A stretch of DNA of 64,000 nucleotides from Pseudomonas sp. MUP55 (GTDB lineage: Bacteria > Pseudomonadota > Gammaproteobacteria > Pseudomonadales > Pseudomonadaceae). Positions 1 through 59,928 of the stretch are shown here, piece after piece (position 1 is the first letter of the stretch; each line of letters starts with the position of its first letter). The stretch spans positions 4,030,001 through 4,094,000 of the forward strand of contig NZ_CP138214.1 of the NCBI RefSeq assembly GCF_034043515.1, in the 5' to 3' direction. Both the position numbers and the translations under genes were made by a program. The notes beneath the pieces are model-generated. The model saw nothing but the letters and a program-made list of their open reading frames with translations. It did no database searches and was not told the DNA's origin.

Positions 1-1422
1 TTACTCATGGCAAATTTTTAGTTTTTCAAGCCGGCGATAAAACGCGCTGCGGCTCAGGCCCAGCGATTCGGCAGCCTTGACCGCGTTGCCGTCGTACTGA
101 CGCAGGCGTCGTAGCAGCAAGGTTTCTTCGACCTCGGCCAGGGTGCACGCATCGCTTATCCCTGCCGACGCGTCGGTGACCGAACGCGCCGTGCTCTGCG
201 ACAACACCGAAGGCGGCAGGCAAAGGTCTTCCAGGTCAATCACACTGGCGCGACACAGCAACACGGCACGTTCCAGCAGGTGACTGAGTTCACGGATATT
301 GCCGGGCCAGGAATACTCAAGCAGGCCCTGTCGCGCTTGCGGCAATAACACGGGCCGGGGCTTGTTGTACTTGCGCGCAAAACGCTTGAGGAAACGCTCG
401 GTCAACGGCTCGATGTCTTCCAACCGCTCTCGAAGCGGCGGCAGCTGAATCTGAATCAGGTTCATGCGATACAGCAGGTCCTGACGAAAACGCCCCTCGA
501 GCACGGCCTTTTCCAGGTCTGAATTGGTGGCAGCGATAATTCGGCACTGCGTGGTCTGCGTACGTGAAGATCCGACGCGCTCAAACTGCCGCTCCTCCAG
601 CACCCGCAGCAACTTCACCTGCTGGGTCAGGGGCAAGTTACCGATTTCATCGAGAAACAGCGTGCCTTTGTCGGCCAATTCGAATCGACCGATTCGGTTT
701 TCCCGTGCATCGGTAAAGGCGCCCTTGATGTGGCCGAACATCTCGCTTTCAAAAAGCTGCTCGTTGATGCAGCCCATGTTCACTTCGACAATACTGTGTT
801 CGCAGCGTGACGAAATCTGGTGGATGTAGCGCGCGAGCAGGCTTTTACCGGTACCGTTTTCGCCCAGGATCAGCACGCTGGTATCCGTGACCGCCACCTT
901 TTCCACGAGGCTGATCAGACGTTGCATCGCCGACGATCGGACAACCCATTCGCTGTCCATGTCATCTTCGAGCGCCAGCTTGAGCAGCTTGTTTTCTTCA
1001 CGCAGGCAATTGCCCGAACGACGCGTCTGGCTCAGCGTGATCTGCTGTTGGACGATGCTCAGCAAACGCTCGTTATCCCAGGGCTTCTGAATAAAGTCGG
1101 CCGCCCCCGCACGCATGGCGTTGACGATGATGTCGACGCTTCCCCACCCGGTCATCGCCACAGCCGGCAAGCAATCATCGAATTTCTTCATTTCGGCCAG
1201 CAGTTGCAGCCCTTCCACGCCTGACGTCGTGTCCTTGCGAAAATTCATGTCCATCAACACCAGATCAACGGGCCTCGCATACAAATGCGCAAGCAGGCGA
1301 TCAGCGTGGGTTTCCATCGTCACGTCGTAGCCGTGCATGCGTAGCAGGATATCGAGGCTGGTCAGGATGCCGGCGTCGTCGTCTATAACCAGGATGTGTT
1401 TCTTATCGTTCATGTTAAGCAT
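1..1422 (-). CDS. NtrC-family sigma-54-dependent response regulator
   Basis: Cytoplasmic transcriptional activator of 473 residues. An N-terminal receiver domain (about 9-125) carries acidic residues DDD at 14-16 and the likely phospho-acceptor Asp58. A central AAA+ sigma-54 interaction domain (about 160-395) has Walker A GENGTGKS at 187-194, Walker B TLFLDE near 254-259 and the sigma-54 contact loop at 234-239, which reads GAFTDA instead of canonical GAFTGA. A C-terminal Fis-type helix-turn-helix lies at about 430-470. The stop codon is at the window edge but the protein looks complete. A second in-frame ATG at 1413 is an alternative start; neither has a strong ribosome site. It lies 38 bp downstream of the exporter permease gene on the same strand, and a sigma-54-type promoter precedes that operon, so it probably activates its own exporter operon. 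The partner kinase is not in the window. Confidence 0.9.
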   Translation of the reverse strand: MLNMNDKKHILVIDDDAGILTSLDILLRMHGYDVTMETHADRLLAHLYARPVDLVLMDMNFRKDTTSGVEGLQLLAEMKKFDDCLPAVAMTGWGSVDIIVNAMRAGAADFIQKPWDNERLLSIVQQQITLSQTRRSGNCLREENKLLKLALEDDMDSEWVVRSSAMQRLISLVEKVAVTDTSVLILGENGTGKSLLARYIHQISSRCEHSIVEVNMGCINEQLFESEMFGHIKGAFTDARENRIGRFELADKGTLFLDEIGNLPLTQQVKLLRVLEERQFERVGSSRTQTTQCRIIAATNSDLEKAVLEGRFRQDLLYRMNLIQIQLPPLRERLEDIEPLTERFLKRFARKYNKPRPVLLPQARQGLLEYSWPGNIRELSHLLERAVLLCRASVIDLEDLCLPPSVLSQSTARSVTDASAGISDACTLAEVEETLLLRRLRQYDGNAVKAAESLGLSRSAFYRRLEKLKICHE

Positions 1423-1460
1423 CCAGCTTGTACTACCGTGCGTGGAAGCACGGCAGTCGT

Positions 1461-3890
1461 TTATTCATAACGAATCGCATCGGCGGGCGACATATTGGTC
1501 GCCCGGCGGGAAGGAAGCCAGACCGCCAAGGCCACAACCAGCGTAATCATCAGTGCCACCATCCAGAAGAGCAGCACAAACGGGGTGTTTCCATTACCCA
1601 GGATACGCGTCAACTTGGGCGCCACGAAGAACGCCAACGGCAAGCCAATCACAAGTCCGGCCAACAATTGCTTGCCGCCCTGGAGCATCAACATACGTAA
1701 CAAATTGCTTTCAGTGGCGCCCATGGCCATGCGCAGGCCTATTTCCTGGGTACGCTGATTGATCAGATTGCACATCACTGCGTAAATACCCGTTGCGGCC
1801 AATATCATCGCCACCAGGCCGAACAACATGAAAAGGTTGGCGATAAAATGCAAGCCTGCAGTGTTGCGGGCCAGGCGTTCATCCAGCGTCTGGATCTGAT
1901 TGACCGAAAGATTGTTATCCACCTGGCGGACCGCATCGATCAGCGCCGGGCCCACGCCTTCCGGCTGTTGGGTGCGCAGCACCAGCATCAATGAGGAAGA
2001 GGGTTGCTGTTCCAGGGAACGATACACCGTGGCGCGGTGGCGAAATGCACTGAAAGGCCGCCCATGAATAACGCTGGGCACCACGCCTACGACTGAGTAC
2101 CAGCGCTGGTCATCGTTATCACGAAACCGCAGACGCTTGCCGATCACATCCCGTTGCCCGGGCCAGAACTGCTCGGCAAAGGACTGACTGACGACAACGA
2201 CCGGTTCTGAGCCCTGGGTATCACCATGGGAGAACTCCCTGCCCGACGTCGGCGTGATTCCCATCGCGGACAGGCTGCCGGGCATGACCTGTACATCGTT
2301 GACTATCGGGTAAGACCAGCGCTCATTGGTGTTGTTGGTCGACGAGTCGACATCCACCTGGCGCGGCAGGGTGAATTGCCCGACGGCACTGGTGGTCAAT
2401 GCGGCACGTTCGACCCCTGGGATCGTGGCGACGCCGTCATGCAAGCGCTGATAAAACAGGATACGGCTGGCATCGTCGGGGTAACTGTTGGGGTTGAGGT
2501 GGATCTGTGCGGTCAGGTAGCCATCAGTATCGACACCGTAGTCCGCGCGTGTCGCCTGGTAGACCAGGACTGCGAATAGCGCGCTGATACACAGGATCGA
2601 GCAGGAAAGCCCGACTTCGAAGATCACCAGAATCCGTGACATCCGGCCCGCACCACGACTTTGCGCGCCACGGGTACCGTCGCGCAGCACGTCATTGAAG
2701 TTGCCATGCACGATTTTCCAGGCCGGTAAGGCGCTGGTGAGCAACGCCGTGATGGCTACCAGCGCCAGTGCATTGAAGATCAGCACATTGTCGAGGGACA
2801 GTTGCCACCAGAAAGGGATCTTGATGGGTACGAAACCAGGCAGTATCTGGTTGGTGACTTCCAGCCCCCATGCAGCCAGCAAGACCGCCACGACACCGGA
2901 CAGACAACAGATGAATAAGCTTTCGAGCATCATTTGAAGCACCAGACGGCCCGCGGGAGAGCCCAGCGCCACGCGAATCGCGATTTCCTTGGAACGCTCG
3001 GTGGTCCGTGCCAGCAGCAGATTCCCGACATTGCAGCACGCCAACAGCAGCACAAAACTGACCGCGAACAACATGACGATAAAGATCGGCCGGGTCTCCT
3101 CGCCCATGAAATTTTCCTGGAAGGTCAATGCTTGCGCAGAGAGCCCCTTGTTACTTTCCGGGTGCTCAAGCGCGACGGCCTGCATCACCCTGTTGAGGTC
3201 GCGATTGGCATCCTCAACGCTCGTGCCGGGCTTCAAACGCGCGTACACCGACACTTCCGGAGCGCCCTTGCGCGCCAGGTACCGCGAAGGTTCAAGCTGC
3301 GACGGCAGCCATAAGTCATGGAAGAAAGGAAAGGCGAAATTTTGCGGCATGATGCCGACAATGCGCGTAGGGACGCCGTTGATCCTGATATCGCGACCGA
3401 TGACCTGCGTGTCCTGAGCAAAGTAGTTTTGCCACATGGCATAGCTGATCACCGCGACGGGCTCGGCACCTGCCTGTACATCTTCCTGATTCAGGACTCT
3501 TCCTTGAAATGGCTGAACGCCTGCATATGAAAACATCTGTGGGGTGTTTCTGATGGCCATATAGGAAACTGCCTTGCTGCCATCACTGATATCCGCGCGC
3601 TCGGCATAAAAATACCCCACCTCTTCAAGCTCGGTAACGCGCGCCTTGATGTCGCTGTAATCCATGAAGTTCAAGCCCGAGTCACTGAGGCTGACGCCAT
3701 TCACGGTCGGATTGATCAGGACCATGTTTTTCCCGTCCGGATAAGGGAGCGGCGCGAACATAATGGTGTTGATCACCGAGAACATATACAGGGTCAACGC
3801 CAGTCCACAGGACATGATCAACACGGTAATAAAGGTAAAACCAGGACTCTTCAGGAGTAGACGCAAGGCGTAGCGAATGTCAAAAAGCAT
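1461..3890 (-). CDS. MacB/FtsX-type ABC transporter permease, duplicated form
   Basis: Inner-membrane permease of 809 residues, about twice the usual FtsX-domain subunit. It has an N-terminal membrane helix (about 17-40), a periplasmic MacB-like core, three membrane helices around 270-400, then a second helix-plus-periplasmic-core unit starting near 420 and a final three-helix FtsX domain at 690-800. The motif ERSKEIAIRVALGS in the first half and RTQEIGLRMAMGA in the second are typical FtsX-domain signatures, so the protein is an internally duplicated permease with no fused ATPase. The ATPase gene ends 1 bp upstream. With the adaptor gene at 4655 it should form a MacAB-like tripartite exporter. 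The substrate is not evident; such systems export macrolides, lipopeptides or peptides. Confidence 0.9.
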   Translation of the reverse strand: MLFDIRYALRLLLKSPGFTFITVLIMSCGLALTLYMFSVINTIMFAPLPYPDGKNMVLINPTVNGVSLSDSGLNFMDYSDIKARVTELEEVGYFYAERADISDGSKAVSYMAIRNTPQMFSYAGVQPFQGRVLNQEDVQAGAEPVAVISYAMWQNYFAQDTQVIGRDIRINGVPTRIVGIMPQNFAFPFFHDLWLPSQLEPSRYLARKGAPEVSVYARLKPGTSVEDANRDLNRVMQAVALEHPESNKGLSAQALTFQENFMGEETRPIFIVMLFAVSFVLLLACCNVGNLLLARTTERSKEIAIRVALGSPAGRLVLQMMLESLFICCLSGVVAVLLAAWGLEVTNQILPGFVPIKIPFWWQLSLDNVLIFNALALVAITALLTSALPAWKIVHGNFNDVLRDGTRGAQSRGAGRMSRILVIFEVGLSCSILCISALFAVLVYQATRADYGVDTDGYLTAQIHLNPNSYPDDASRILFYQRLHDGVATIPGVERAALTTSAVGQFTLPRQVDVDSSTNNTNERWSYPIVNDVQVMPGSLSAMGITPTSGREFSHGDTQGSEPVVVVSQSFAEQFWPGQRDVIGKRLRFRDNDDQRWYSVVGVVPSVIHGRPFSAFRHRATVYRSLEQQPSSSLMLVLRTQQPEGVGPALIDAVRQVDNNLSVNQIQTLDERLARNTAGLHFIANLFMLFGLVAMILAATGIYAVMCNLINQRTQEIGLRMAMGATESNLLRMLMLQGGKQLLAGLVIGLPLAFFVAPKLTRILGNGNTPFVLLFWMVALMITLVVALAVWLPSRRATNMSPADAIRYE

Positions 3891-3891
3891 C

Positions 3892-4608
3892 TTATGCTTC
3901 CTTCACCAGAGTCAGTTGCCGCACCTGTTCTCCATCACCGACAACCTTTCCGTCAGACAGGACAATGCTGCGCTGTGCACGCTCTGCCGAGCGTGGATCG
4001 TGAGTGACGATGCAGATAGTGGCTCCCTCACCATGCAATTTGTCGAGGATGTTGAGTACCGCCTCGGCATTGTGCGAATCCAGGTTGCCGGTGGGTTCGT
4101 CCGCGAGAATAATTGAGGGGTTGCCGACAATCGCCCGGGCCACCGCGACGCGTTGCTGCTGGCCGCCTGAGAGTTGTGACGGGTAGTGGCGACTGCGATG
4201 AGACATATTGACCTTGGCCAGGGCTTCGACGACCCGCTGATGCCGCTCGGCTTTGGAAATGTCCGCGCGATACGTCAGTGGCAGCGCGACATTTTCTTCG
4301 ATGGTCAGGTCGCTGATAAGGTTGAACGACTGAAAGATGAAGCCGATGTCTCGGTTACGCACCTGCGCACGCTGTTTTTTGGAAATACTGTCGACATTGT
4401 GGCCGGCCAACTGATAAGTGCCGCTCGAAGGCGTATCCAGCAGCCCCAGCACCGAGAGGAGCGTCGATTTCCCACAGCCAGATGGCCCGGAGATGGCTAC
4501 ATACTCACCTTTTGAAAGGGTGAAGGTGATCTTGCTGAGCGCATGAGTCTCGATTTCGTCGGTCAGGAAGATTTTGTTTACGTCAGTCAGTTTTACCAGC
4601 GGTTCCAT
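3892..4608 (-). CDS. ABC transporter ATP-binding protein, LolD/MacB type
   Basis: ATPase subunit of 238 residues powering the permease encoded just downstream. It shows Walker [10 protein letters not shown], the Q-loop in IFQSFNL, the ABC signature [14 protein letters not shown], Walker [13 protein letters not shown] and the switch His in VTHD, all in the LolD/MacB arrangement. The open frame extends upstream to 4704, but the ATG at 4608 has AGGAG about nine bases before it and gives the standard family N-terminus ([14 protein letters not shown]). The stop codon is separated by one base from the permease start, so the two are translationally coupled. It follows the adaptor gene by 46 bp in one operon. 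Confidence 0.93.
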
Positions 4609-4654
4609 GGTTGCTGTCTCCTGGGCATTGTTGCGAAGGCCGGCGCGAGCGGTA

Positions 4655-5905
4655 TCAGTTGACGATTTCAATCTGGTCGGCCCCCTGCCACGCGGTGCTG
4701 TCACTTAGAATTATCTTGTCGCCAGCCTTGAGCCCGGCGGTGATCTGGATGTAATCAGCAGACCCTTGCCCGAAATTGACTTTCATTTTGGTAGCCGAGC
4801 GGTCCTTCTCATCCAAGCGGTAGAGCATAGAGGGTAGGTTATTCTGCGCGAACGGAGGACGCTCGACATATAGCGAATGATTGATTTTCGTCACGGCGAT
4901 CAAGCCGTCGACACTCAGATCAGGACGTGCCTCCTGAGGCAGCGGCTGATTGAACGTGACATCCACTTTGACCGTCCCGTTCGTCACTGCCGGGTCCACC
5001 CTGGACAACACACCGGTAAAACGACTGCGCCCTGTGTTGATCGTGACAGCCTGCCCCACCGCAAGATCGCGTGACTGCAACTCGGGGACCTTAAGCTCGG
5101 CGTACAGCTCTTTTTCCTTGGCGAGGCGGGCAATATCACTGCCCACCGTCACCCGCTGGCCGACCTGCACCTTGACGTCCTGCAGGATGCCGTCAATGGG
5201 GGATTTGACCTTGAGCGAATCAACTTCCTGCTGACTCAATGCCACCTGCGACTCCATCTTGTTGAGGCGCATCAAGTTCGCCTTCACATCCGCCTGCACG
5301 CTGAGTTTGAGTGTCTTTAACCGCCGCTCTTCAAAGCCGACCTGCTGCGTGTACTGTTCAGTCAGAATGCGCGTCGTTTCATATTCCAGCCTGGGCACTG
5401 CGGCAATATATTTTTTCTGGGCCGCCAGGCGCAGGGTAGAACCAAGCAGTCGACTCTTTGCATCCAGCGTCAACGCTTCCTGGTTCAGAATCTTGTTCTG
5501 CAGCTCGGCATTCTTTGCCTCCGTCTCCGCGCGACGCGCATCCAACTCCAGCCGATTTTCCTGAAGCCGCTGTTCAAGTGTCGGATTGCTCATGACCACC
5601 AGCAATTGACCTTTGCTGACTTTCATTCCCGCTTTATAAATGACTTCCTCTACCCGAGCGTCAACGTTCGCGGCCACCCAGTTGATGTCCCAAGGAAGAA
5701 GCACGCCATTGCCCCTTACTTCAACAGAAAAATCACCGTATTTGACTTCCGCAATGGCCACGCTGCTGCGAACTACCTGGTAGGGCGAAAATCGGTAGTT
5801 ATAGATAAGCAACAGCAGCACGAGTAGAAAAACACCACCGGCAATAATATTACGGTGCTTTTTCCATTGACTCTTGTTTCCCTCGTTTGAAATCGAGATA
5901 TCCAT
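4655..5905 (-). CDS. HlyD/MacA-type periplasmic adaptor of ABC exporter
   Basis: Membrane-fusion protein of 416 residues, first gene of the exporter operon. A short cytoplasmic tail (1-20) is followed by one membrane helix (about 21-37). Next come a first lipoyl half-motif (about 75-110), a long helical hairpin (about 110-230, rich in Glu/Gln/Leu/Arg), the second lipoyl half (KSPIDGILQDVKVQVGQRV, near 237) and beta-barrel domains to the C-terminus. This is the MacA/HlyD architecture linking an inner-membrane permease to a TolC-like outer-membrane channel. No TolC homologue is encoded in the window. A sigma-54-type promoter ends about 35 bp upstream of the start codon, which fits control by the regulator encoded at 1-1422. 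Confidence 0.92.
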   Translation of the reverse strand: MDISISNEGNKSQWKKHRNIIAGGVFLLVLLLLIYNYRFSPYQVVRSSVAIAEVKYGDFSVEVRGNGVLLPWDINWVAANVDARVEEVIYKAGMKVSKGQLLVVMSNPTLEQRLQENRLELDARRAETEAKNAELQNKILNQEALTLDAKSRLLGSTLRLAAQKKYIAAVPRLEYETTRILTEQYTQQVGFEERRLKTLKLSVQADVKANLMRLNKMESQVALSQQEVDSLKVKSPIDGILQDVKVQVGQRVTVGSDIARLAKEKELYAELKVPELQSRDLAVGQAVTINTGRSRFTGVLSRVDPAVTNGTVKVDVTFNQPLPQEARPDLSVDGLIAVTKINHSLYVERPPFAQNNLPSMLYRLDEKDRSATKMKVNFGQGSADYIQITAGLKAGDKIILSDSTAWQGADQIEIVN

Positions 5906-5940
5906 AACCGTACCAATTCAAAAAAGCTCAAGCAGGCTTT

Positions 5941-5956
5941 AGCACGCATCGTGCCA
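5941..5956 (-). promoter_or_regulatory. Putative sigma-54 promoter of the exporter operon
   Basis: Read on the minus strand the site is TGGCAC-N5-GTGCT, against the sigma-54 consensus TGGCAC-N5-TTGCW. The -24 element is perfect, the -12 GC is present and the GG-to-GC spacing is exactly 10 bp. Transcription would start near 5930, giving a short leader before the adaptor gene (start 5905). The operon's last gene encodes a sigma-54 activator, which makes the match more meaningful. The rest of the 424-bp intergenic stretch (5906-6329) is AT-rich. It holds the araC-type gene's promoter region and an inverted GTTTC-N9-GAAAC pair around 6178-6198 that could be an upstream activator site; nothing else is clear there. 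Confidence 0.65.
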
Positions 5957-6329
5957 ATTTAAGCTAAAACTCATAACGTGCTGATAATAAAATGATTTAT
6001 CCGCCTCGTCGTCTTTCAAAGCCAAACAGCAATGGCCGACAGTTTCACTTCCGGAACCACCGTATAAGCATTTTCGAGACACTGATTGCGCTGCCTTCCC
6101 CACACGCCGCTCAGCAATCCCATTAGCGGGACGAACAACAACGTGGTTTTCAAAAATATCCCGAAAATGGGACTGAGCGTTTCTGGTAGTGCGAAACATC
6201 TAAAAAAACATTGAACAAACAGCCACTTAAATTCGTTAAATAGTGGCATAGCATTTGCCTGTTCATTCGCGAGTCAACGCCAACACCATAATAAAGCTAC
6301 GCCATCGAGCGCTGCAGAACGGAGTCTGT

Positions 6330-6875
6330 ATGTGGGAACGTAAAATTACTTACGCGGAACAGTCATTATTTACACAACAGATAATGGACGACCTGAATAA
6401 GCGTCACTTCGAAACCTATGGGAAATATGCACACACCGATAAAACGCTGTGCATTGTCAGAGTGATTAACCACATGGTGGAAAATATTTCAGAGGAGATC
6501 ACCCTGGAAGACCTGGAGAAAGTCTGTGGCAAGTCCCGCTTCGACATCTGTCGAATGTTCAACCTGTTTTACAACGTCACACCGATCAAGTGGATGTGGA
6601 AGGTCCGACTGGCACTGGCGAAGGAATTTATCCTGCTGGCGCCAGAATGGTCATTGACCGATATCAGCTATGCCTGCGGCTTTTCCTCACTGCCACACTT
6701 CTCGCGAAGTTTCAGCAAAACCTATAATGAAACCCCGCTTAAACTCAAACAATGCATCATGAAGTCAACACGACAGGACCCCAGAAAAGAAGCTTGCGAG
6801 TATGACTTTATTTTTGGGATACAGCGCAATGACTTCTCGCGCAACATGCTGATCAACAACATCAACTCCTTATAA
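6330..6875 (+). CDS. AraC-family regulator, DNA-binding domain only
   Basis: Protein of 181 residues with an AraC-type double helix-turn-helix at about 40-150 (ITLEDLEKVCGKSRFDICRMF for the first, DISYACGFSSLPHFSRSFSKTY for the second). The N-terminus of about 40 residues is too short for a normal effector-binding domain, so it is of the MarA/SoxS size class with a C-terminal extension. The frame is open to a TTG at 6255, but the ATG at 6330 has GGAG five bases upstream and is preferred. It is AT-richer than the flanking core genes. It points toward the convergent biosynthetic-like operon (7075-11291) and away from the exporter operon, so it is a candidate regulator of either. Confidence 0.85.
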   Translation: MWERKITYAEQSLFTQQIMDDLNKRHFETYGKYAHTDKTLCIVRVINHMVENISEEITLEDLEKVCGKSRFDICRMFNLFYNVTPIKWMWKVRLALAKEFILLAPEWSLTDISYACGFSSLPHFSRSFSKTYNETPLKLKQCIMKSTRQDPRKEACEYDFIFGIQRNDFSRNMLINNINSL

Positions 6876-6902
6876 CAAGTCACCCAACCAACGACGCACT
6901 AA

Positions 6903-7046
6903 CCTCAGGCCACTCGCACGCTGTGTATAGCACGGACTTTTCCCATTAGTGCCAGGCTGTCGTCTTCCTGTTGCCGGGTAACAGCGACAATGGCAGTAAC
7001 GGTATTATTTCGGTCGGGCTGTATGTCAGGTGAGTGGGGCCTGAGG
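6903..7046. repeat. Imperfect inverted repeat between convergent genes
   Basis: The arm CCTCAGGCCACTC (6903-6915) is matched by GAGTGGGGCCTGAGG (7032-7046), complementary apart from two extra bases. It brackets most of the gap between the converging araC-type gene and the hydrolase gene. It could form a long-range stem at the 3' ends of both transcripts. No oligo-T run follows, so it is not a clear intrinsic terminator. Confidence 0.4.
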
Positions 7047-7074
7047 GGAAGGCCACGACGCGGGATGCAACGCA

Positions 7075-8121
7075 TTAACTCTTGAAACGTACATCAATAG
7101 TTGGGCGCAGGCGCAATACGGGATTGGCCATGCGGGTAGCGTCTTCCTGCGCGGTAGGCTCCAGAAAAGCAGAGATACGCTTGAATACACTGGCATCGCG
7201 CAAAGCGCCATTGTGGCCCTGACCCGCTGTGACTATCAGTTTGCTTTTTTCCAGTACGTGGGTAAGCACCATCGCATCTTCCAGGTCGATGCTGATATCC
7301 CCCTTGTCATGCACAATCAAGACCGGCTGTTTTATCTGTGCAATCCATTCAGGCCCAATCTTGTCGGGATGAACACCGTAACGCAGCTGATAAAGTTTTT
7401 TCATCGCGCTGGCGATATGACGAGGCAGTTTATGGCTGAGTACATAATTATCCACTACCTCGCCGAAGCAGCACGGACTGCTGATCAGGATCATGCGCTT
7501 GAAGTGCAGCCCTTGCATGGCGGCCATACAGCCCACCAACCCGCCGGACGAGTGGCCGATCACTATCGAAAACGGACCATATTGTCGCTCGATAGCAATC
7601 ACAGCGCTGGAGAGGTCGTAAAAAGACACGCCCCTGCCCGGGGACGCTCCATGTGCAGGCAGATCAGGCGCATGCACACTGTACCCTGTTGCCTGCAGGC
7701 GCTGGGCAAGGTGCCTGAGCATGATGCTTCGACCGTCCCAGCCGTGCAGCAGCAAAACTTTCTCTGCTTGCTGATCTGATTGTGGGTAGATGAACATGTT
7801 GACGAGAGCATGGCGCCACGTGAAGTTTTCCTGCCGGCACTGCTTGAGCAACATCATCTCTGCGGGCTTGTAGGGCAATGGCCGGGTCTTTTCAAACAAG
7901 TACATGGCATACAGTGCGGACAGGTAAGACGACATCATGTCCAACGAATACAGATCAAATAATCTGATTGAACGACACACTCGGACGTAGTGCGTCGTCG
8001 GCCTGACTTTAGCTTTCATCAGCAATGTCGGCCGCCGGTGCATCACCACCAATATACGAAGGTAATTCTGGTGGACCAGCGACACGATCAGCAGCAGCGG
8101 ATAAATAACACTAAAGAACAT
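7075..8121 (-). CDS. Alpha/beta hydrolase, last gene of KASIII-ACP operon
   Basis: Protein of 348 residues. A hydrophobic N-terminal helix (about 3-17) suggests membrane anchoring. The hydrolase fold begins near 120 with the HGWDG oxyanion loop. The catalytic residues are Ser191 in GHSSGG, a likely Asp275 in HDKGD and His303 in GQGHNG. The motif set fits serine esterases, lipases and stand-alone thioesterases. The ATG at 8121 overlaps the end of the MATE gene by 11 bp, which supports this start over the longer frame to 8196. Within this operon it could release an acyl chain from the carrier protein or hydrolyse the final product; that role is inference. Confidence 0.85.
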   Translation of the reverse strand: MFFSVIYPLLLIVSLVHQNYLRILVVMHRRPTLLMKAKVRPTTHYVRVCRSIRLFDLYSLDMMSSYLSALYAMYLFEKTRPLPYKPAEMMLLKQCRQENFTWRHALVNMFIYPQSDQQAEKVLLLHGWDGRSIMLRHLAQRLQATGYSVHAPDLPAHGASPGRGVSFYDLSSAVIAIERQYGPFSIVIGHSSGGLVGCMAAMQGLHFKRMILISSPCCFGEVVDNYVLSHKLPRHIASAMKKLYQLRYGVHPDKIGPEWIAQIKQPVLIVHDKGDISIDLEDAMVLTHVLEKSKLIVTAGQGHNGALRDASVFKRISAFLEPTAQEDATRMANPVLRLRPTIDVRFKS

Positions 8122-9463
8122 GCTCGCGCCCCAGCTTGTTCGCGAGCCGCCAGTATTCATTGGCAAACGCCAGAAAATTGATGGCGCTGAATACAATAAT
8201 GGTCGCCATGATTGGCTTCACGCTGGAGAAGTGCTCCCAACCCGCCCATAAAACTATCGCCATCGTCAACTCGATGATGACCGTCAGTATCAACACACGT
8301 CGCGCCTGATCCAGTTGCTCGAGCAGCGCCTGCAACGACGCTACAAACGCTGTCAGAAAGAACGTCGGCAATAAAACCAGCATCATCTGGCTACTCGCCT
8401 CCCTGATCGCGCCGTCGCCGGAAAGTAGACCGATCAACGTACGCTCGCTGAAATAGACCCCGGCAGTGAGCACCAGATAGAGCCCAGCGATAAACATTAA
8501 CCCGCGGTGCAAAAGCCACTTCAGCCCTTCACCGCTGGTGACCGTCAATCGCTGGTTTATCAGGATCGCCAACGCGGAGCCGCAGGCCACGGCAGGAATG
8601 ACAATGAACATCCTGATCTTGGTAATGATCAGGAACGCGGCCACATACTGTTCGCCGGCTTTTGCTATCAAGGGAAATACCAGCAGTGAACTGAGAAACA
8701 CCACGATAAACGATATGAAAATCGGCAAGCCAACCTGCTGAAGCAAACCTTTCAAGCGCGCAGTGAATGCGTGCGGGCGATCATCCTGTGCCTGGCGACC
8801 GACATGCCACACCAACCATGTGGCAACGGGAATCAACAAACAGGACGCCAGCGCGTTAGCCACGATAATGGAATAAAAACCCAAGCCGTACACGTGGTAG
8901 CTGGTATAGCAAATCACGCCGTTCAAGAGGATGAAGGCAATCACCAGAAGCATGCTCGACGCGCTTCTGCCCTGCCCGCGCAAGGCGCTGTTGCACATTT
9001 CCAGCTGAATGAACGGCACCATCGAAAGGAAATACAGGGGAAGCGCCTCTTGATAAAAATGTTCCCCCGCGACAGGAAGCACTCTTTCCAGCCACGGCGC
9101 AGATAAGGCCACCGCCGCACTTAGCAAGGCAATGACCACAACCCCCAACACGGCTAAAAGAAGGGTGGCGCGCAACACTTTCTGTTTTGACCAGAGGTTC
9201 ACTGACCTGGCGCTGAACACCTGATTGCTGATAGCCAAACATTCCAGAATCGCCAGGAACAGAAAACTGAACGGTTGAATCATCGACAACCAATAAATCG
9301 AGGTGGTCTCGGCGCCGTGTCCCAGAATGGCGGTCTGCATGTTTTGTGAAAAAGACACCGCGACGGCTACCACAATCATGGGCCAGGCGAGCTTCAACAG
9401 GTCTGCGATATCCCGTCCAGCCCTGCGGCGTTGCGACAGAACCAAGCTGGGTGATGTGTTCAC
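8111..9463 (-). CDS. MATE-family efflux transporter
   Basis: Integral inner-membrane protein of 450 residues with about twelve hydrophobic segments in two similar halves, the pattern of MATE (multidrug and toxin extrusion) antiporters. These export organic compounds in exchange for Na+ or H+. The start is GTG at 9463, overlapping the TGA of the upstream gene as GTGA and preceded by GGGAGGG, so translation is coupled. It sits inside the KASIII-ACP operon, which suggests it exports the operon's product rather than acting as a general drug pump. Confidence 0.9.
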   Translation of the reverse strand: MNTSPSLVLSQRRRAGRDIADLLKLAWPMIVVAVAVSFSQNMQTAILGHGAETTSIYWLSMIQPFSFLFLAILECLAISNQVFSARSVNLWSKQKVLRATLLLAVLGVVVIALLSAAVALSAPWLERVLPVAGEHFYQEALPLYFLSMVPFIQLEMCNSALRGQGRSASSMLLVIAFILLNGVICYTSYHVYGLGFYSIIVANALASCLLIPVATWLVWHVGRQAQDDRPHAFTARLKGLLQQVGLPIFISFIVVFLSSLLVFPLIAKAGEQYVAAFLIITKIRMFIVIPAVACGSALAILINQRLTVTSGEGLKWLLHRGLMFIAGLYLVLTAGVYFSERTLIGLLSGDGAIREASSQMMLVLLPTFFLTAFVASLQALLEQLDQARRVLILTVIIELTMAIVLWAGWEHFSSVKPIMATIIVFSAINFLAFANEYWRLANKLGREHVL

Positions 9464-10104
9464 ACACCCTCCCCCAGGCTATCGCGCTGTGGCAGGCCGT
9501 GATGACGGGTAGTCTTGCCATACAGGCTGTAAATCATCATCGAGAGATAAGACAGCGTGTGGGTCGCGCCAAGCAGATAGCCATGGCCTCCCATCAATTT
9601 TTCCGCTCTGTTAGTCAATTGTGTGATGTGCCAATGGTCCTCTTCAGCGTCCTGGAAATCCTGCGCCTCGATCCGCATGCCCCACTGCAACGACAACAGG
9701 CTGCAGTGGCTGCTCAGATCCGCGAACTCGGCTTTGATCAACTGGTGCCGGGTGGCTTTCACGCCAAAGCTTCTGCGAGCGGACAGGTGTGTCCAGCTCA
9801 TACCCAGCATGCGGGTCAACAGGCCCAGTCGGGCAGCGACAGAGACCATGAGCGGGGTATCGTCGGCAGCGATCACTTGCTCTTCTCCCAGCCAGCGCAG
9901 GTCCAGGCCAAGGGAGGCAAGCACCCGGTCTACCTGCGCTGATGGGTCGGCCAGTGCCACATGCTGCTGGGGCACCAGTTGATAGCCCTGACTGAACGTG
10001 CGCCGGGTCTGGGGCGGCAATTCCAGGCGCAACTGCCGCACTGCCTCGGCAGGCTCATTGCCCGCAAACAGCTGATAAATCCTGTTGAACGGACGGTCAG
10101 GCAT
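9460..10104 (-). CDS. Truncated acyl-CoA-dehydrogenase-like protein
   Basis: Protein of 214 residues whose second half resembles the C-terminal four-helix domain of acyl-CoA dehydrogenases. The segment SARRSFGVKATRHQLIKAEFADL matches the family pattern ERRQFG...FQxVxxxLAxM, and GGHGYLL near 180 matches the conserved HGGxGY. Normal family members are about 380-400 residues; the N-terminal helical domain and most of the middle beta domain are missing. The first ~85 residues have no recognisable fold. The ATG at 10104 overlaps the ACP stop by 8 bp and has GGAG upstream. It may be a partner of another subunit, or a non-redox or acyl-handling protein; whether it binds FAD cannot be told from sequence. 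Confidence 0.65.
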   Translation of the reverse strand: MPDRPFNRIYQLFAGNEPAEAVRQLRLELPPQTRRTFSQGYQLVPQQHVALADPSAQVDRVLASLGLDLRWLGEEQVIAADDTPLMVSVAARLGLLTRMLGMSWTHLSARRSFGVKATRHQLIKAEFADLSSHCSLLSLQWGMRIEAQDFQDAEEDHWHITQLTNRAEKLMGGHGYLLGATHTLSYLSMMIYSLYGKTTRHHGLPQRDSLGEGV

Positions 10105-10357
10105 ATGCACGCTCCGCCTGCAGGTGCTGCTCGATCCAGGCAATCAACTTACCGACCGAGGTGAACGCATCCTGACTGATTTGATCAGGCTCAAACATTA
10201 ATCCAGGCACTTTCTCTTCAAGCGTCAGCAAGAACTGCACAAACAACACCGAATCTAGATCGAGGTCTTCGTTAAAGTCCGTTTCCAGGCTGACCGTCAC
10301 CGCCGAAGCCATGACTTCGTTAAGTGCTTTATTAATCGCCACAAGAAGATCTGACAT
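10097..10357 (-). CDS. Acyl carrier protein
   Basis: Small acidic protein of 86 residues with the carrier-protein pattern: helix I about 4-18, then DLDLDSVL with Ser36 as the predicted phosphopantetheine attachment site, helix II after it and a final helix near 65-82. The ATG at 10357 has GAGG upstream; an in-frame ATG at 10369 lacks one. The start lies 26 bp inside the end of the KASIII-like gene. As a dedicated carrier it should hold the acyl intermediate handled by the neighbouring KASIII-like and dehydrogenase-like proteins. It is distinct from the housekeeping AcpP, whose motif is GADSLD. Confidence 0.9.
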   Translation of the reverse strand: MSDLLVAINKALNEVMASAVTVSLETDFNEDLDLDSVLFVQFLLTLEEKVPGLMFEPDQISQDAFTSVGKLIAWIEQHLQAERAYA

Positions 10358-11291
10358 GTAAAACCTCACTGGATTGGTGTCTTTCGATTAGCACGCATGA
10401 AAGCGTAACGCCCATGCCCATGGTCAGGCAGAGTATTCTTTGCCCTGTAAACTTCTTCAGCAGCGCGGACAGATTAAATAGAATATCGGCGCAGTAAGCG
10501 TGCCCATACTCGGCAATATGCTCGGTAAACAGAATGCCTTTGAACTCGAGTTTCTCCACCACGCGTTTAAGCATCGGCAGGTCCAGATTACACGGGACGA
10601 TCGCGTCGATACTCTCCAGCGGAACATTGAACTGGCGCACGGCATAAAGATAAAAGTCGTGGTAATCATGTTCCAGCGACGCATATAACTCGCGTCGGCG
10701 CGCGGGTGTCTGCTGGCGGTGATTATCATAGAAGCCGGCCATGTGCCGGACGGCGGTATGTGTCACATTCCACTGGGCAGGCCCCGCATTGAGCAGCATC
10801 ACCGCGGGCACTTCGGCCAGCACGCTGTTATCGAGCCGATTGATCGCGCTGTGAAAGGCTTTTTCTCCCGTCAACAGCAACATCGGCTCGCCACGTTTAA
10901 TTAATCTGTTTTTCAGCAAGTGAACCGCCGACAAGGCCGACGAACAATGATTCAAGCTGACGCTAAGTACTTCCCAATGACCAAGCCCGCACACGTCGGC
11001 GACTTCGTGCAGCCAATCATTATCAAAAAACGTGTTATGCGTCTGGGTCTTGGCATACACCAGACAACCTTTGCGCGCTTTCAAGTGCGGGTTGGCAACG
11101 ATCAGCGATTCCAGTGTTTCCACAAGCATATGTGCGTGTGTGCGGGAAGACAGCGCGACGGCATTCAGAAAATAATAACGTTGCAATACCTTGCACGCGC
11201 CCGACTTGAGGTCGTGCGACTGTTCAAGGGTATCCAAGGGGTTTAATGAAATACGATCCGGCAACCAACATAAATAATTAAGTGGCAGCAT
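10332..11291 (-). CDS. KASIII-like (FabH-fold) protein with altered active site
   Basis: Protein of 319 residues with a thiolase/FabH-like layout. The nucleophile region is SLNHCSSAL (Cys116). The C-terminal half carries VPCNLDLPML, IAEYGHAYCADI and the terminal LCLTMGMGVTLSCVLI strand. In FabH the catalytic residues are Cys112, His244 and Asn274. Here the two later positions are Cys234 (VPC for VPH) and His264 (YGH for YGN), and their 30-residue spacing matches FabH exactly. So Cys is kept and His and Asn are replaced. It may transfer acyl groups without decarboxylation, as other divergent KASIII enzymes do; the reaction is unknown. First gene of the operon. Confidence 0.78.
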   Translation of the reverse strand: MLPLNYLCWLPDRISLNPLDTLEQSHDLKSGACKVLQRYYFLNAVALSSRTHAHMLVETLESLIVANPHLKARKGCLVYAKTQTHNTFFDNDWLHEVADVCGLGHWEVLSVSLNHCSSALSAVHLLKNRLIKRGEPMLLLTGEKAFHSAINRLDNSVLAEVPAVMLLNAGPAQWNVTHTAVRHMAGFYDNHRQQTPARRRELYASLEHDYHDFYLYAVRQFNVPLESIDAIVPCNLDLPMLKRVVEKLEFKGILFTEHIAEYGHAYCADILFNLSALLKKFTGQRILCLTMGMGVTLSCVLIERHQSSEVLHVRSSCGD

Positions 11292-11499
11292 AACGTTCCC
11301 GCGTGGCGTAATTTTTAGTTCATCTAATTACCCACATCGTCCCAGAAACGGTTCGTGCTTTTTGCCTCAAATTGCTTAAAACCAAGAATTTCCCATTTGC
11401 AGGTCCCACAAACGGAATTTTCCAACCACTTCATCGACTCGTCGTCTGCCGACGCGGGCATTTGAGCAACGCCAACGCCAGCAGAGAGGCTGCTTGTTG

Positions 11500-13832: not shown

Positions 13833-14471
13833 ATGACGATTGAAACCTGGCTGCTGTTCAGCGGCGCGGCGCTGGTGGTGATCCTGATCCCCGGCCCTCT
13901 TTCCCTGCTGATGATCAGCAACAGCTTGAATTACGGTCTGCGCCGTTCCTACCCGGCGTTCCTGGGCGGGGTGTTTGCCTCGATCTGCCTGCTGAGCGCC
14001 TCGGCCCTGGGCCTGGGCGCGCTGTTGCTGGCCTCCGAACAGGTATTCAGCGCGCTGAAAATCGTCGGCGCGCTGTACCTGTTCTACCTGGCCTGGCAGA
14101 GCTGGCAGCAATCACGCCAGCCGGCCGAGGCTGCCAATGTGCCGCAGGTGGCCTGCACCCCGCGTTTTCGCGTGCTGTTCGGCCGCGCCTTTGTACTGGG
14201 CGCCAGCAACCCCAAGGACATCCTGTTCTTTGCCGCCTTCCTGCCGCAATTTCTCAGCCCCGAGCACGCATTCCTGCCGCAACTGCTGACCATGATCGCC
14301 ACCTGGACCGCACTCGACCTGCTCTGCAAGCTGGGTTACGGCCTGGGCGCCCAGGGCGCCGCGCGGTATTTGCGCAGCGGCTCGGGCCAGAGCTGGTTCA
14401 ACCGCATCAGTGCCGCCTTGTTCGGCTGTGCCGGCGTGGCGTCGCTGATCAAGGTTCGAGCGACAATTTGA
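13833..14471 (+). CDS. LysE/RhtB-family amino-acid exporter
   Basis: Inner-membrane protein of 212 residues with six hydrophobic segments. The LysE-family N-terminal motif IPGPLSLLMISNSLNYGLRRS lies at about 18-40, and NPKDILFFAAFLPQF near 130-145. Members export amino acids or related small compounds. The ATG at 13833 has GGAG seven bases upstream, preferred over the frame opening at 13800. Its 3' end overlaps that of the large convergent DUF6543 gene by 23 bp. The substrate is unknown. Confidence 0.92.
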   Translation: MTIETWLLFSGAALVVILIPGPLSLLMISNSLNYGLRRSYPAFLGGVFASICLLSASALGLGALLLASEQVFSALKIVGALYLFYLAWQSWQQSRQPAEAANVPQVACTPRFRVLFGRAFVLGASNPKDILFFAAFLPQFLSPEHAFLPQLLTMIATWTALDLLCKLGYGLGAQGAARYLRSGSGQSWFNRISAALFGCAGVASLIKVRATI

Positions 14472-17400
14472 TGAAGTAAACGGAGGGCGGGACTCGTCCC
14501 GCAGTCGGCCATTGGATACCTGCAATAATCCGAACCAGGCGATTACTCCTCAGTGCACGGTTGATATCGTCTGTCAGCTCCGAGTCTATGGGAGCCCGGA
14601 ACGCACGTATCCAGCTTTGCCTGGCCTTTGCCCCTTTTCTGAAGGACGCCCTTGAAACCCATTCACAGGTCACATAGTAGAGTTGGCCAGGAGAGTTGGG
14701 ATGCGTGGCGATCAATTCATGGGCAGGTCTGAAGTAGCGTGTCCCGCTGCGCTCCACGACAGTGAAACCCTGCCGCTCAAGCACCGTCCTGACGGCCGCA
14801 CGCTGCGCGCCCTCTCTCTGCGCCATCACCGCTTTGCCGCCGTGCTGGAGCTGCACCTCCAAAGTGGCCGGCACGTAGTCAACACGCGTGAAACCAGGCG
14901 CCTTGCCGTCATAGCCGATGAACACCGAGTTGCCGGGGCTTTCAGTGGGGCGCAACATTTTCAACAGATCATCCGTCTGCCCAGGCCTGGCGGGTAGCGC
15001 TGGTAACCACTCATCCAGCGTCGCACGGATATTGAGCAGATGAGTGGCCGTTGCCGGACGATCCGGACCGCTCAACTCGACCACCCTTGCCACGACAAAT
15101 TCGCGGCTATGGCTTGTCAGGTTGGGGAAGGCCGTCGTCGTATAGTCCACCAAAGGCCTGTCAAACAAGCGGGCATGGAGCGTCCATCCGCCTGCCGAAT
15201 TGTAAGAGACCGGGAAAGGTTGTTCGTGCATCGCCGTGCTGGTCCAACGCCTGATGTCGACCCAGGCTGCTGATCCGGATACTTTGTCCGGCTGGATAAA
15301 AACGATCCCGGTCAAAGGCGCCTGGTCCCCCGCGGGAAGCAATCTGTAATACGCGGGCGTGTCCGTTGTGGGTATCATCAGGGCGTTATGGGGCACCCCC
15401 CCGGCATCCGCCGGAACGTAAAAAATGTCGGGCGCCACCGAACTCATACCTGGGTCCATCTGACGTTGAATAGGCCACTCCAGCCATTGGGTAGACGTTG
15501 AGAATGTCTGGGTGATTCTGTTCTCCGTCGCGGTCCGTACAGCGGGTGGTTGCCAGCCCGGCGGCTCTGGCGTGGGCGCACGCCACGGACGCAGTGTCCC
15601 CGAACTCGTTCCCGCGACCGGCTGCGGCGCGTCCGCACCGAGCAACCACTCCCTGGGCTGGTGAATGTTCAAAATCAACTCATCCTGCCCCGGCGTCTGC
15701 GAGTTTTTCACGCGATACGTGGTTTCACCGGCGCGCTTGTAAAGTGGGTAATGGCCTGCGTCATCGGTCACAAACGCCTCGCCATTCTTGACATAGACGC
15801 CCTTCTCGCTCGGCGCTCTCAGTTCAACCGCCCCTTGAGGCACACCGTCGACTTTGAAACGCGTCAAGACGTCCAGTTGAGTACCCGCTGACGACGCCGA
15901 GCGCGAAGCGCCTCGCGTCGTCATGCGCAAACGGTGCAAGCCTTTCAAGGCAAGCTTATGGACGGCGCGCCCAGTACCCACAACAGCCCTGCCCACCTTC
16001 TTGGGGCCGGGTAAAAAGCTCAGCAACAGATCAATCGCCATGTAGGCGCTCATAAAGCCCACATCGACCGCATCGTGGGGATCGCCAAAACGGTGATAAC
16101 GCCGCGCAGCCACCAGCAATTCATAGAAGTCATTGAGCATCCCGAATAGCGGGAAAATAAACCCCACCAACCGCCTTGGAGTGCCCTCGTGTCGCTCAGC
16201 AAGGCGGCGGGTTCGATAGGCTTTCAGCGCCTTGCCGGACTGACTGGCGGCCTGGGTCTGGCGTTGCAACTCAAAGACATTGGCGTGGTATAACAAGGCC
16301 TGGGCGTCACTGTGTGATGTGGGCACCAGCACCAGCCAGCGCCCCTTATCACTGGCAATCTGCTCATGAATTATTTTTTCAATCTCATCAAGTATCACGG
16401 TCGGCTCTAGATGCGTGATGTTGAATGAGCGAATGAACTCACGTACCTGCCATATCCCACGCACCAGCATAAATGCAGGCGTCATCTCATAAAACCTGAG
16501 CGTCTCGTCGAGCTTGTCCGGATGGTGGTTGATGGCCTCGAACGCCCAGCCCGGGGCGACTTGCCGTGCGAGTATCCTGATGTTTTCAGGCAATGCGCCA
16601 ATGCGATTAAGGGCGTCCTGGGCCTGTTGCAAACTGCTGTACTCGGTCAGGACCAAGGCGGGCGCAGCCTGCGGCCAATAAACCACGCAAAGACCAGTGC
16701 GTTTGTCCTGCACCACCACTAGCCCGGCGATATAGCGATCATGCTGCATGGTGTGGCCCACCAGATGCACCGCGTGCACTTGCAACTCGTGCTGGTTTTT
16801 CATCAGGTCTTGCGGGATGCGGGCCGCCATCGCCGTGCTGAACAGACTTTGCGCATCTGCCGTCAGGCCGCACTGTATCGCTGAAAACAGATGATGCTGA
16901 ACACCTGCGCGTAAAGCGCGCTTGAGTAACTCGGGAATCCGTCCTTTGCTGAGCGACTGGTCATGCGCCACTGGCGGATAAAATTCCTTGCGGATCAAAG
17001 CGTCGTGCTGGCCACCTATATCCAGCGACGAGACTATACGGATCAGAAATTCGGCGCTGAGCCGTTGTTTCCAGGCAGGTTGCAAAAACGAGGCGTATTC
17101 AAATCGCCACTTTGTCCACGTCGCCAGAGGGTCCAGGTTATGCAGCGCCAGTTGCAGCAGGCTGAAGGTCATCCGCGTTTCGCTCGGGGTTAATATGATT
17201 TTGCGATCACCCACCACACAGCGGCTATCAAATCGGTCGCAAAAGCTGGCGTACACATTATCGGGCATATCCACCAGGGGCTGGTCGATATCCAGCTCCT
17301 CGGAGATACCCTCCTGGCGCAACCGCGCAGTCAAGGCGGCGCGAGCGAAGGTGTACAGGTTGGGCAAGCGCTCCTCAAGCCGGGTCCTGTAAGCAAACAA

Positions 17401-19707: not shown

Positions 19708-19788
19708 AGGCTTCTTCTCTGTGAGGAAAAGACCCAGCCTAGGCACCGGCGCCGTTCAAAAGGTGCTAGATAAGTGAACGCGCAGCCG

Positions 19789-47031: not shown

Positions 47032-59928
<12,897 letters not shown>

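Follow-up and report, generated by a model that had tools for sequence, protein, structure and literature searches.

An overlapping five-gene operon of Pseudomonas sp. MUP55 is very probably part of a horizontally acquired Vfm-type quorum-sensing locus

The stretch of DNA analysed here (64,000 nucleotides, hereafter the window) corresponds to positions 4,030,001-4,094,000 of the 5.95-Mb single-contig genome of Pseudomonas sp. MUP55. It contains five minus-strand genes that overlap end to start and encode a KASIII-like protein, an acyl carrier protein (ACP), a dehydrogenase-like protein, a MATE-family transporter and a hydrolase, next to a plus-strand gene for an AraC-type regulator (Table 1). 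The original prediction had described them as a single tightly coupled operon with its own regulator, located on an accessory island beside another exporter and encoding a minimal pathway, unlike any known cluster, that would yield a small acyl product. The open reading frames were found at the expected places, and the junction sequences gave overlaps of 26, 8, 4 (GTGA) and 11 bp with ATG starts at 10357 (ACP), 10104 (dehydrogenase-like) and 8121 (hydrolase) and a GTG start at 9463 (MATE); longer, program-chosen starts at the first two junctions would make the overlaps 38 and 47 bp. The overlaps are conserved between genera, since the annotated locus of Rahnella victoriana exhibits the identical series 26/8/4/11. 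The AraC gene likely starts at 6330, because the annotation of the Rahnella homologue (181 amino acids) begins at the equivalent point and the alternative, longer TTG start would fall within the predicted promoter.

The AraC gene and the operon form the right end of a locus of 31,525 bp with 31 genes (genome 4,009,767-4,041,291), much of which lies to the left of the window; further ketoacyl synthase (KAS)-like matches are found directly left of the window in the genome. From its left end, the locus encodes a carrier protein, an ornithine/diaminopimelate-decarboxylase-like pyridoxal phosphate (PLP) enzyme, two KAS-like or unclassified proteins, an adenylation protein and a carrier, next two adenylation proteins, a VOC protein, an acyl-CoA dehydrogenase (ACAD), a small unclassified protein, a hydrolase, a KAS-like protein and an ACAD, and then an unclassified protein, a KAS-like protein, a cytochrome P450, a luciferase-like monooxygenase and a DUF2807 protein. 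These are followed on the minus strand by a phosphopantetheinyl transferase (PPTase), a histidine kinase, a response regulator, a permease, an ATPase and an adaptor. The gene names were taken from Pfam or NCBIfam, and those of the VOC, DUF2807, P450 and some other proteins from annotated homologues of Rahnella aceris. All 31 genes are open in Pseudomonas sp. MUP55, and they are 98-100% identical in strain W4I3.

This arrangement corresponds to the Vfm quorum-sensing locus of Dickeya. According to published work, the Dickeya locus comprises the 26 genes vfmA-Z, of which M, O and P encode stand-alone adenylation proteins, H and I a two-component system, G an ABC permease, C a multidrug transporter and W an oxoacyl-ACP synthase (PMC9306890); the gene order is AZBCDEFGHIJXWVUTSRQPOMNLKY (PMC9650423), vfmAZBCD form one polycistron, E encodes an activator and FG an ABC transporter (PMC7912708). 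Gene by gene, 16 loci were compared, drawn from a scan of genome contigs and from plasmid matches. Both the vfm locus of D. undicola and that of D. oryzae contain colinear counterparts of 26 of the 31 Pseudomonas genes, and the shared set includes vfmAZBCD, the AraC protein VfmE, VfmH/VfmI, VfmFG, the PPTase and the three stand-alone adenylation proteins. The regulatory genes, among them those for VfmH and VfmE, show 49%, 63-64% and 48-49% identity to their Dickeya counterparts, and NCBI names a homologue of the AraC protein (48% identity) VfmE, so that the regulator assigned to the operon by the original prediction is vfmE. The five extra genes encode a KAS-like protein (gene 04), a hydrolase (gene 12), the P450, the luciferase-like monooxygenase and a membrane-fusion protein; any Dickeya matches of the KAS-like protein and the hydrolase go to other paralogues. 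The genes vfmH, vfmG and vfmF and that of the membrane-fusion (adaptor) protein occupy window positions 1-5905. The remaining genes, vfmI, J, X, W-K and Y, are found to the left of the window, at genome positions 4,009,767-4,030,000. Letters without an anchor in the papers are provisional and follow gene order. The gene order found here is that of the published string except for the M/N pair: in print M stands beside O, whereas in the loci studied here a carrier gene separates adenylation proteins O and M, as would be expected for an order K-L-M-N-O-P with N as the carrier. The identities of VfmO and VfmP are fixed, because the specificity codes extracted from the Dickeya loci equal the published ones, i.e., DVYVICTVAK for VfmO in both, and DLMFAGCCMK (D. 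undicola 2B12) and DMMFFGACVK (D. oryzae ZYY5) for VfmP.

The VfmM code DYYINAMRCK is present in the MUP55 locus, seven other Pseudomonas loci, R. aceris and two Dickeya loci (11 of 16 rows), and is thus shared with Dickeya. The VfmO code DVFVICTVAK was found in the MUP55 locus, six other Pseudomonas loci and R. aceris, i.e., in 8 of the 13 readable rows out of 14; the blank row belongs to Pseudomonas sp. MIACH, in which a stop lies inside vfmO and the neighbouring genes are open (L077, 6974-8524). The VfmP code is DMLFFAGGMK in six of eight Pseudomonas loci, including MUP55, DMLFFAGCMK in the other two, and DMLFYGACVK in R. aceris. As variation of VfmO and VfmP sets signal specificity in Dickeya (PMC9306890) and the codes differ from those of Dickeya groups I-V, the signal of the Pseudomonas locus is predicted to be a different analogue from those of groups I-V. 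A specificity group VI is mentioned for Musicola (PMC10319131), the codes of which lie outside this comparison. The difference in the O and P codes is a variation within the Vfm system, not a defining feature of it.

VfmH and VfmE were also compared for residues that have been linked to cyclic di-GMP. Three arginines of VfmH are needed for cyclic di-GMP (PMC10714721), and they are kept in 12 of 14 homologues, including that of MUP55, while the GAFTDA loop is present in all 14; both features are shared with Dickeya. The motif RWIWR of D. dadantii VfmE (PMC9045272) occurs in 3 of the 24 readable VfmE homologues (2 of 26 had no readable motif). The D. poaceiphila-type VfmE (P0019) carries KWLWK in its place, and because it also is devoid of RWIWR, this motif does not define the Vfm system. 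Two D. poaceiphila-type proteins, VfmE (60%) and VfmA (P0057, 54%), resemble the Pseudomonas type more than their equivalents in other Dickeya do (about 48% and about 43%, respectively).

Upstream of vfmE, a strict sigma-54 site (TGGCAY-N5-TTGC) is present in 12 of 13 loci (eight Pseudomonas, including MUP55, two Rahnella and two Dickeya, not Xenorhabdus), and in the same 12 loci it is preceded by at least one inverted repeat, or dyad, that deviates from TCCCA-N4-TGGGA at no more than one position. The main dyad of the Pseudomonas loci begins 126-127 bp upstream of the -24 element. A tandem pair (TCCCR-N4-YGGGA) exists at one place in the MUP55 genome, which is the vfmE promoter, and the reversed control gave none. 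Shuffled sequences produced on average 0.035-0.145 chance matches per region; because the dyad was derived from the same upstream regions, this is a within-sample check and not an independent test. A dyad with up to two mismatches is found at the same position upstream of vfmA in 10 of 13 loci, and a loose sigma-54 scan, ranked by GG/GC position, yielded only poor candidates there. A review names the promoters of vfmE and vfmA as targets that VfmH binds and activates in Dickeya (PMC7912708), and the dyads are candidate VfmH sites. VfmH of D. dadantii has GAFTDA in place of GAFTGA, and the authors left open whether it uses sigma-54 (PMC10714721). The conserved sigma-54 site bears on this question and makes it directly testable.

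The first enzyme of the operon deviates from its family. VfmA has a Pfam match to the C-terminal domain of KASIII (37.7 bits, cut-off 26.6), and its structure model (predicted local distance difference test score, pLDDT, 81) matches KASIII folds, e.g., 2ebd with an E value of 7.8e-17 and a template-modelling (TM) score of 0.73. The FabH-type cysteine is retained, Cys116 and His264 being invariant in 19 of 19 aligned homologues. However, the Cys-His-Asn catalytic triad of KASIII (FabH) is not present, as the position of the FabH histidine is taken by Cys in the window protein (the 19 homologues have C, G, Y or H there) and that of the asparagine by His264 in all 19. VfmA may be an acyltransferase with an altered catalytic pair. 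VfmB resembles acyl-CoA dehydrogenases in the C-terminal region, but it has just 214 residues instead of a full-length three-domain ACAD, the sequence matches span only part of the C-terminal domain, and the Pfam score of this domain, the only one found, is 21.0 bits, below the cut-off of 22.4. The fold search gave weak ACAD matches only, with TM scores of 0.36-0.50 among the 50 matches listed. Instead of being a dehydrogenase itself, VfmB may serve as a partner subunit. The structure models used 16 (VfmB) and 15 (VfmA) of the 19 aligned rows.

The gene vfmA is rare in Pseudomonas, being present in 6 of 398 species genomes, including MUP55. The scan of genome contigs revealed 25 loci, seven in Pseudomonas, two in Rahnella, two in Dickeya, four in Lonsdalea, one in Xenorhabdus and nine in alphaproteobacteria. 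A tblastn search of plasmid records with the KASIII-like protein matched 17, of which 11 were from Rahnella (about 64% identity), and two inspected Rahnella records have the same gene order across the shared part. The locus on the R. aceris megaplasmid pRAHAQ01 has matches to all 31 genes in the same order, including the five extras, and its vfmA is 64% identical; it differs from the Pseudomonas locus in being plasmid-borne and in the VfmP code. A FastTree phylogeny built from five concatenated proteins of 16 loci places R. aceris beside Pseudomonas and apart from Dickeya, Lonsdalea and Xenorhabdus, although Rahnella belongs to the same taxonomic order as these three genera. In Xenorhabdus and Lonsdalea, the genes F to I and that of the adaptor are retained, and no VfmE match was found in the Lonsdalea stretches searched. 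Tritonibacter (L003), Agrobacterium vitis (L004) and Mesorhizobium (L088/L089) share vfm-like biosynthetic genes. In the stretches fetched for the three alphaproteobacterial loci compared, VfmE, VfmG, VfmH and VfmI had no matches, and the chemistry thus apparently occurs there without the sensing module.

The reverse situation was found in R. victoriana JZ-GX1 and DSM 27397 (L091, record 356826-360012, and L127, contig 15072-19493), in which the biosynthetic core is missing. The deletions have a shortened PLP-enzyme gene at the left, and their right ends differ (PPTase or luciferase-like gene). Both strains retain the receiver half (kinase, regulator, permease and vfmE) as well as vfmAZBCD. 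A search of the whole DSM 27397 genome gave no close VfmP (best E value 1.7e-22), and JZ-GX1 was judged from the plasmid stretch only. It is possible that these strains are signal listeners.

The locus is flanked by a LysR-type gene and a glutathione S-transferase (GST)-like gene, which were sought in 38 genomes and found in 7 and 18, respectively, including MUP55. Five other genomes carry both genes. They are apart in three of these (G023, G037 and G039) and adjacent in two, separated by about 100 bp (G034) and about 30 bp (G021). Neither of the latter two has a vfmA match, and DNA alignment confirms that both are empty sites. Because the flanks are adjacent in two genomes without the locus and only 6 of 398 genomes carry vfmA, the locus has probably been gained horizontally. 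The proposed accessory island is supported, and the GC content is 54.4% in window positions 1-11291 and 62.3% in the remaining window.

Taken together, the five-gene operon is very probably vfmAZBCD, and the Vfm-type quorum-sensing locus to which it belongs appears to be complete and to have entered Pseudomonas by horizontal transfer. The original prediction of a cluster unlike any known one has thus been superseded: the gene-by-gene comparison gave a match to a named published cluster, which had been stated in advance as the outcome that would overturn it. The adjoining exporter is indeed present, yet it belongs to the same vfm locus and is not a separate system. Several observations weigh against a simple equation with the Dickeya system, from which the Pseudomonas locus also differs in genus and flanks. 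The VfmO and VfmP codes of Pseudomonas are not found in the table of Dickeya groups I-V, VfmE has KWMWK instead of the cyclic di-GMP motif RWIWR, and four enzymes as well as the membrane-fusion protein are without a counterpart in Dickeya, so that the product may differ in kind. At two mismatches, the dyad upstream of vfmA was found neither in the two Dickeya loci nor in Xenorhabdus, and the strict scan detected no sigma-54 site before vfmA. When the genome was searched for a dyad without mismatches ahead of TGGCA, one unrelated place was returned and the vfmE promoter was missed, because both MUP55 dyads carry one mismatch. Lastly, sigma-54 was not pulled down with D. dadantii VfmH, which carries GAFTDA (PMC10714721).

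We infer the function of the locus in Pseudomonas sp. MUP55 from the Dickeya system, for which signal production and the VfmI-VfmH-VfmE cascade have been reported. By analogy, the PPTase VfmJ would arm the carrier proteins, the three stand-alone adenylation enzymes (VfmM, O and P) would load amino acids, and the ACAD, PLP-decarboxylase-like and KAS-like enzymes, here joined by the P450 and the luciferase-like monooxygenase, would assemble a small signal and tailor it. The operon products VfmA, Z, B and D would supply or transfer an acyl part and release the product, and VfmC and/or the VfmFG-adaptor pump would move the signal. Upon accumulation outside, it would activate VfmH via VfmI, perhaps with VfmG as a co-sensor. 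VfmH would bind the TCCCA-N4-TGGGA dyads and, with sigma-54, turn on vfmE, and VfmE would then activate the vfm operons and further targets. A bolder proposal, which in our view may equally turn out right or wrong, is that Vfm is a horizontally moving, cross-genus quorum-sensing module, and that the Pseudomonas-Rahnella type has a further-oxidised signal, a specificity group of its own and a VfmH that acts as a sigma-54 activator despite GAFTDA, with the R. victoriana strains as natural listeners.

Quorum sensing is not the only conceivable role of such a locus. A Vfm-related cluster might mainly make a secreted bioactive metabolite, e.g., an antimicrobial or plant-active compound, and be self-inducing via the two-component system and the AraC protein without a wider regulon. 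The extra tailoring enzymes (P450 and luciferase-like monooxygenase), the alphaproteobacterial loci with biosynthetic genes but no sensing-module matches in the stretches fetched and the restriction of the tandem dyad to one promoter would agree with this. However, the compared Pseudomonas loci retain the complete regulatory half known from Dickeya, together with conserved promoter elements, and a single tandem-dyad promoter is expected under quorum sensing too: the wider regulon of Dickeya is reported to be reached through VfmE, not VfmH (PMC7912708), so that a single pair of VfmH target promoters is expected either way. We thus consider the metabolite explanation unlikely.

The locus could also be a decaying import without a present function, as might be suspected from its rarity in the genus and from decay elsewhere, i.e., the R. 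victoriana deletions and the vfmO stop in Pseudomonas sp. MIACH. The intact reading frames here, their near identity in W4I3 and the presence of key residues and promoter elements make this very improbable. The tight overlaps and the coherent gene content had led to the view that the five genes are a stand-alone minimal pathway for a small acyl product, which is now barely tenable. Most biosynthetic genes, including the three stand-alone adenylation proteins and further carrier, KAS-like and ACAD genes, lie outside the window, and the operon is accompanied by adenylation, carrier, KAS-like and ACAD genes in the Pseudomonas, R. aceris, Dickeya, Lonsdalea, Xenorhabdus and alphaproteobacterial loci. 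The R. victoriana operon without the core looks like a secondary loss, with gene remnants at the edges. An independent minimal pathway was therefore rejected in view of the conserved larger locus around the operon. Dialkylresorcinol, aryl-polyene and polyyne clusters had also been considered as alternatives.

Vfm has been called unique, exclusive or specific to Dickeya (PMC8860905, PMC9650423, PMC11462315, PMC9088014 and, in July 2026, PMC13395407), and its signal is still called uncharacterised. It should be kept in mind that VfmE homologues occur in various species (PMC9045272) and that vfm is listed in Musicola (PMC10319131); no report of a vfm locus in Pseudomonas or Rahnella was found among the matches listed in the open-licence literature. 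The exclusivity is contradicted by the finding of a vfm locus in Pseudomonas, and Vfm looks more widespread and mobile than thought. With the Pseudomonas and Rahnella loci, the signal could be isolated from new hosts outside the soft-rot pathogens, and naturally occurring specificity variants become available along with a defined promoter on which to build a reporter. These loci also raise the possibility of cross-talk or eavesdropping between plant-associated bacteria. According to a review, an isolate of Pseudomonas chlororaphis quenches the Dickeya Vfm signal (PMC11462315).

Table 1. Genes and predicted promoter elements of the vfm locus within the window (positions count from the first nucleotide of the window; aa, amino acids; HTH, helix-turn-helix).
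Feature	Position	Strand	Remarks
vfmH: response regulator, GAFTDA loop, 473 aa	1..1422	-	63-64% identity to Dickeya gene
vfmG: ADOP/MacB-type permease, 809 aa	1461..3890	-	MacB/FtsX Pfam; 54-56% identity to Dickeya gene
vfmF: ABC ATPase	3892..4608	-	PF00005; 74-75% identity to Dickeya gene; start set from homologues
Membrane-fusion (HlyD-type) protein	4655..5905	-	Pfam; unmatched in both Dickeya loci
Dyad TCCCATTAGCGGGA, predicted VfmH site	6118..6131	.	Pairs with dyad at 6159..6172
Dyad TCCCGAAAATGGGA, predicted VfmH site	6159..6172	.	Second half of tandem pair
Predicted sigma-54 promoter of vfmE, TGGCATAGCATTTGC	6244..6258	+	Sole strict match in the 64-kb window, both strands
vfmE: AraC-type activator, 181 aa	6330..6875	+	AraC HTH Pfam; KWMWK replaces RWIWR
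vfmD: alpha/beta hydrolase	7075..8121	-	PF12697; 41% identity to Dickeya gene
vfmC: MATE-family transporter, 450 aa	8111..9463	-	PF01554; 46-47% identity to Dickeya gene
vfmB: ACAD-like protein, 214 aa	9460..10104	-	C-terminal ACAD likeness only; Dickeya counterpart present
vfmZ: carrier protein, ATG start	10097..10357	-	PF00550; 53-54% identity to Dickeya gene
vfmA: KASIII-like protein, 319 aa	10332..11291	-	PF08541; 43% identity to colinear D. undicola and D. oryzae gene
Predicted VfmH site ahead of vfmA (dyad with two mismatches)	11404..11417	.	Within longer conserved inverted repeat 11390-11418

Elsewhere in the window, the minus strand encodes a protein of 1765 amino acids with a match to the ToxA_N domain (dermonecrotic toxin N-terminal; 14449-19746) and a modular non-ribosomal peptide synthetase of 4298 amino acids (47032-59928) with condensation, adenylation and carrier domains, four of each.

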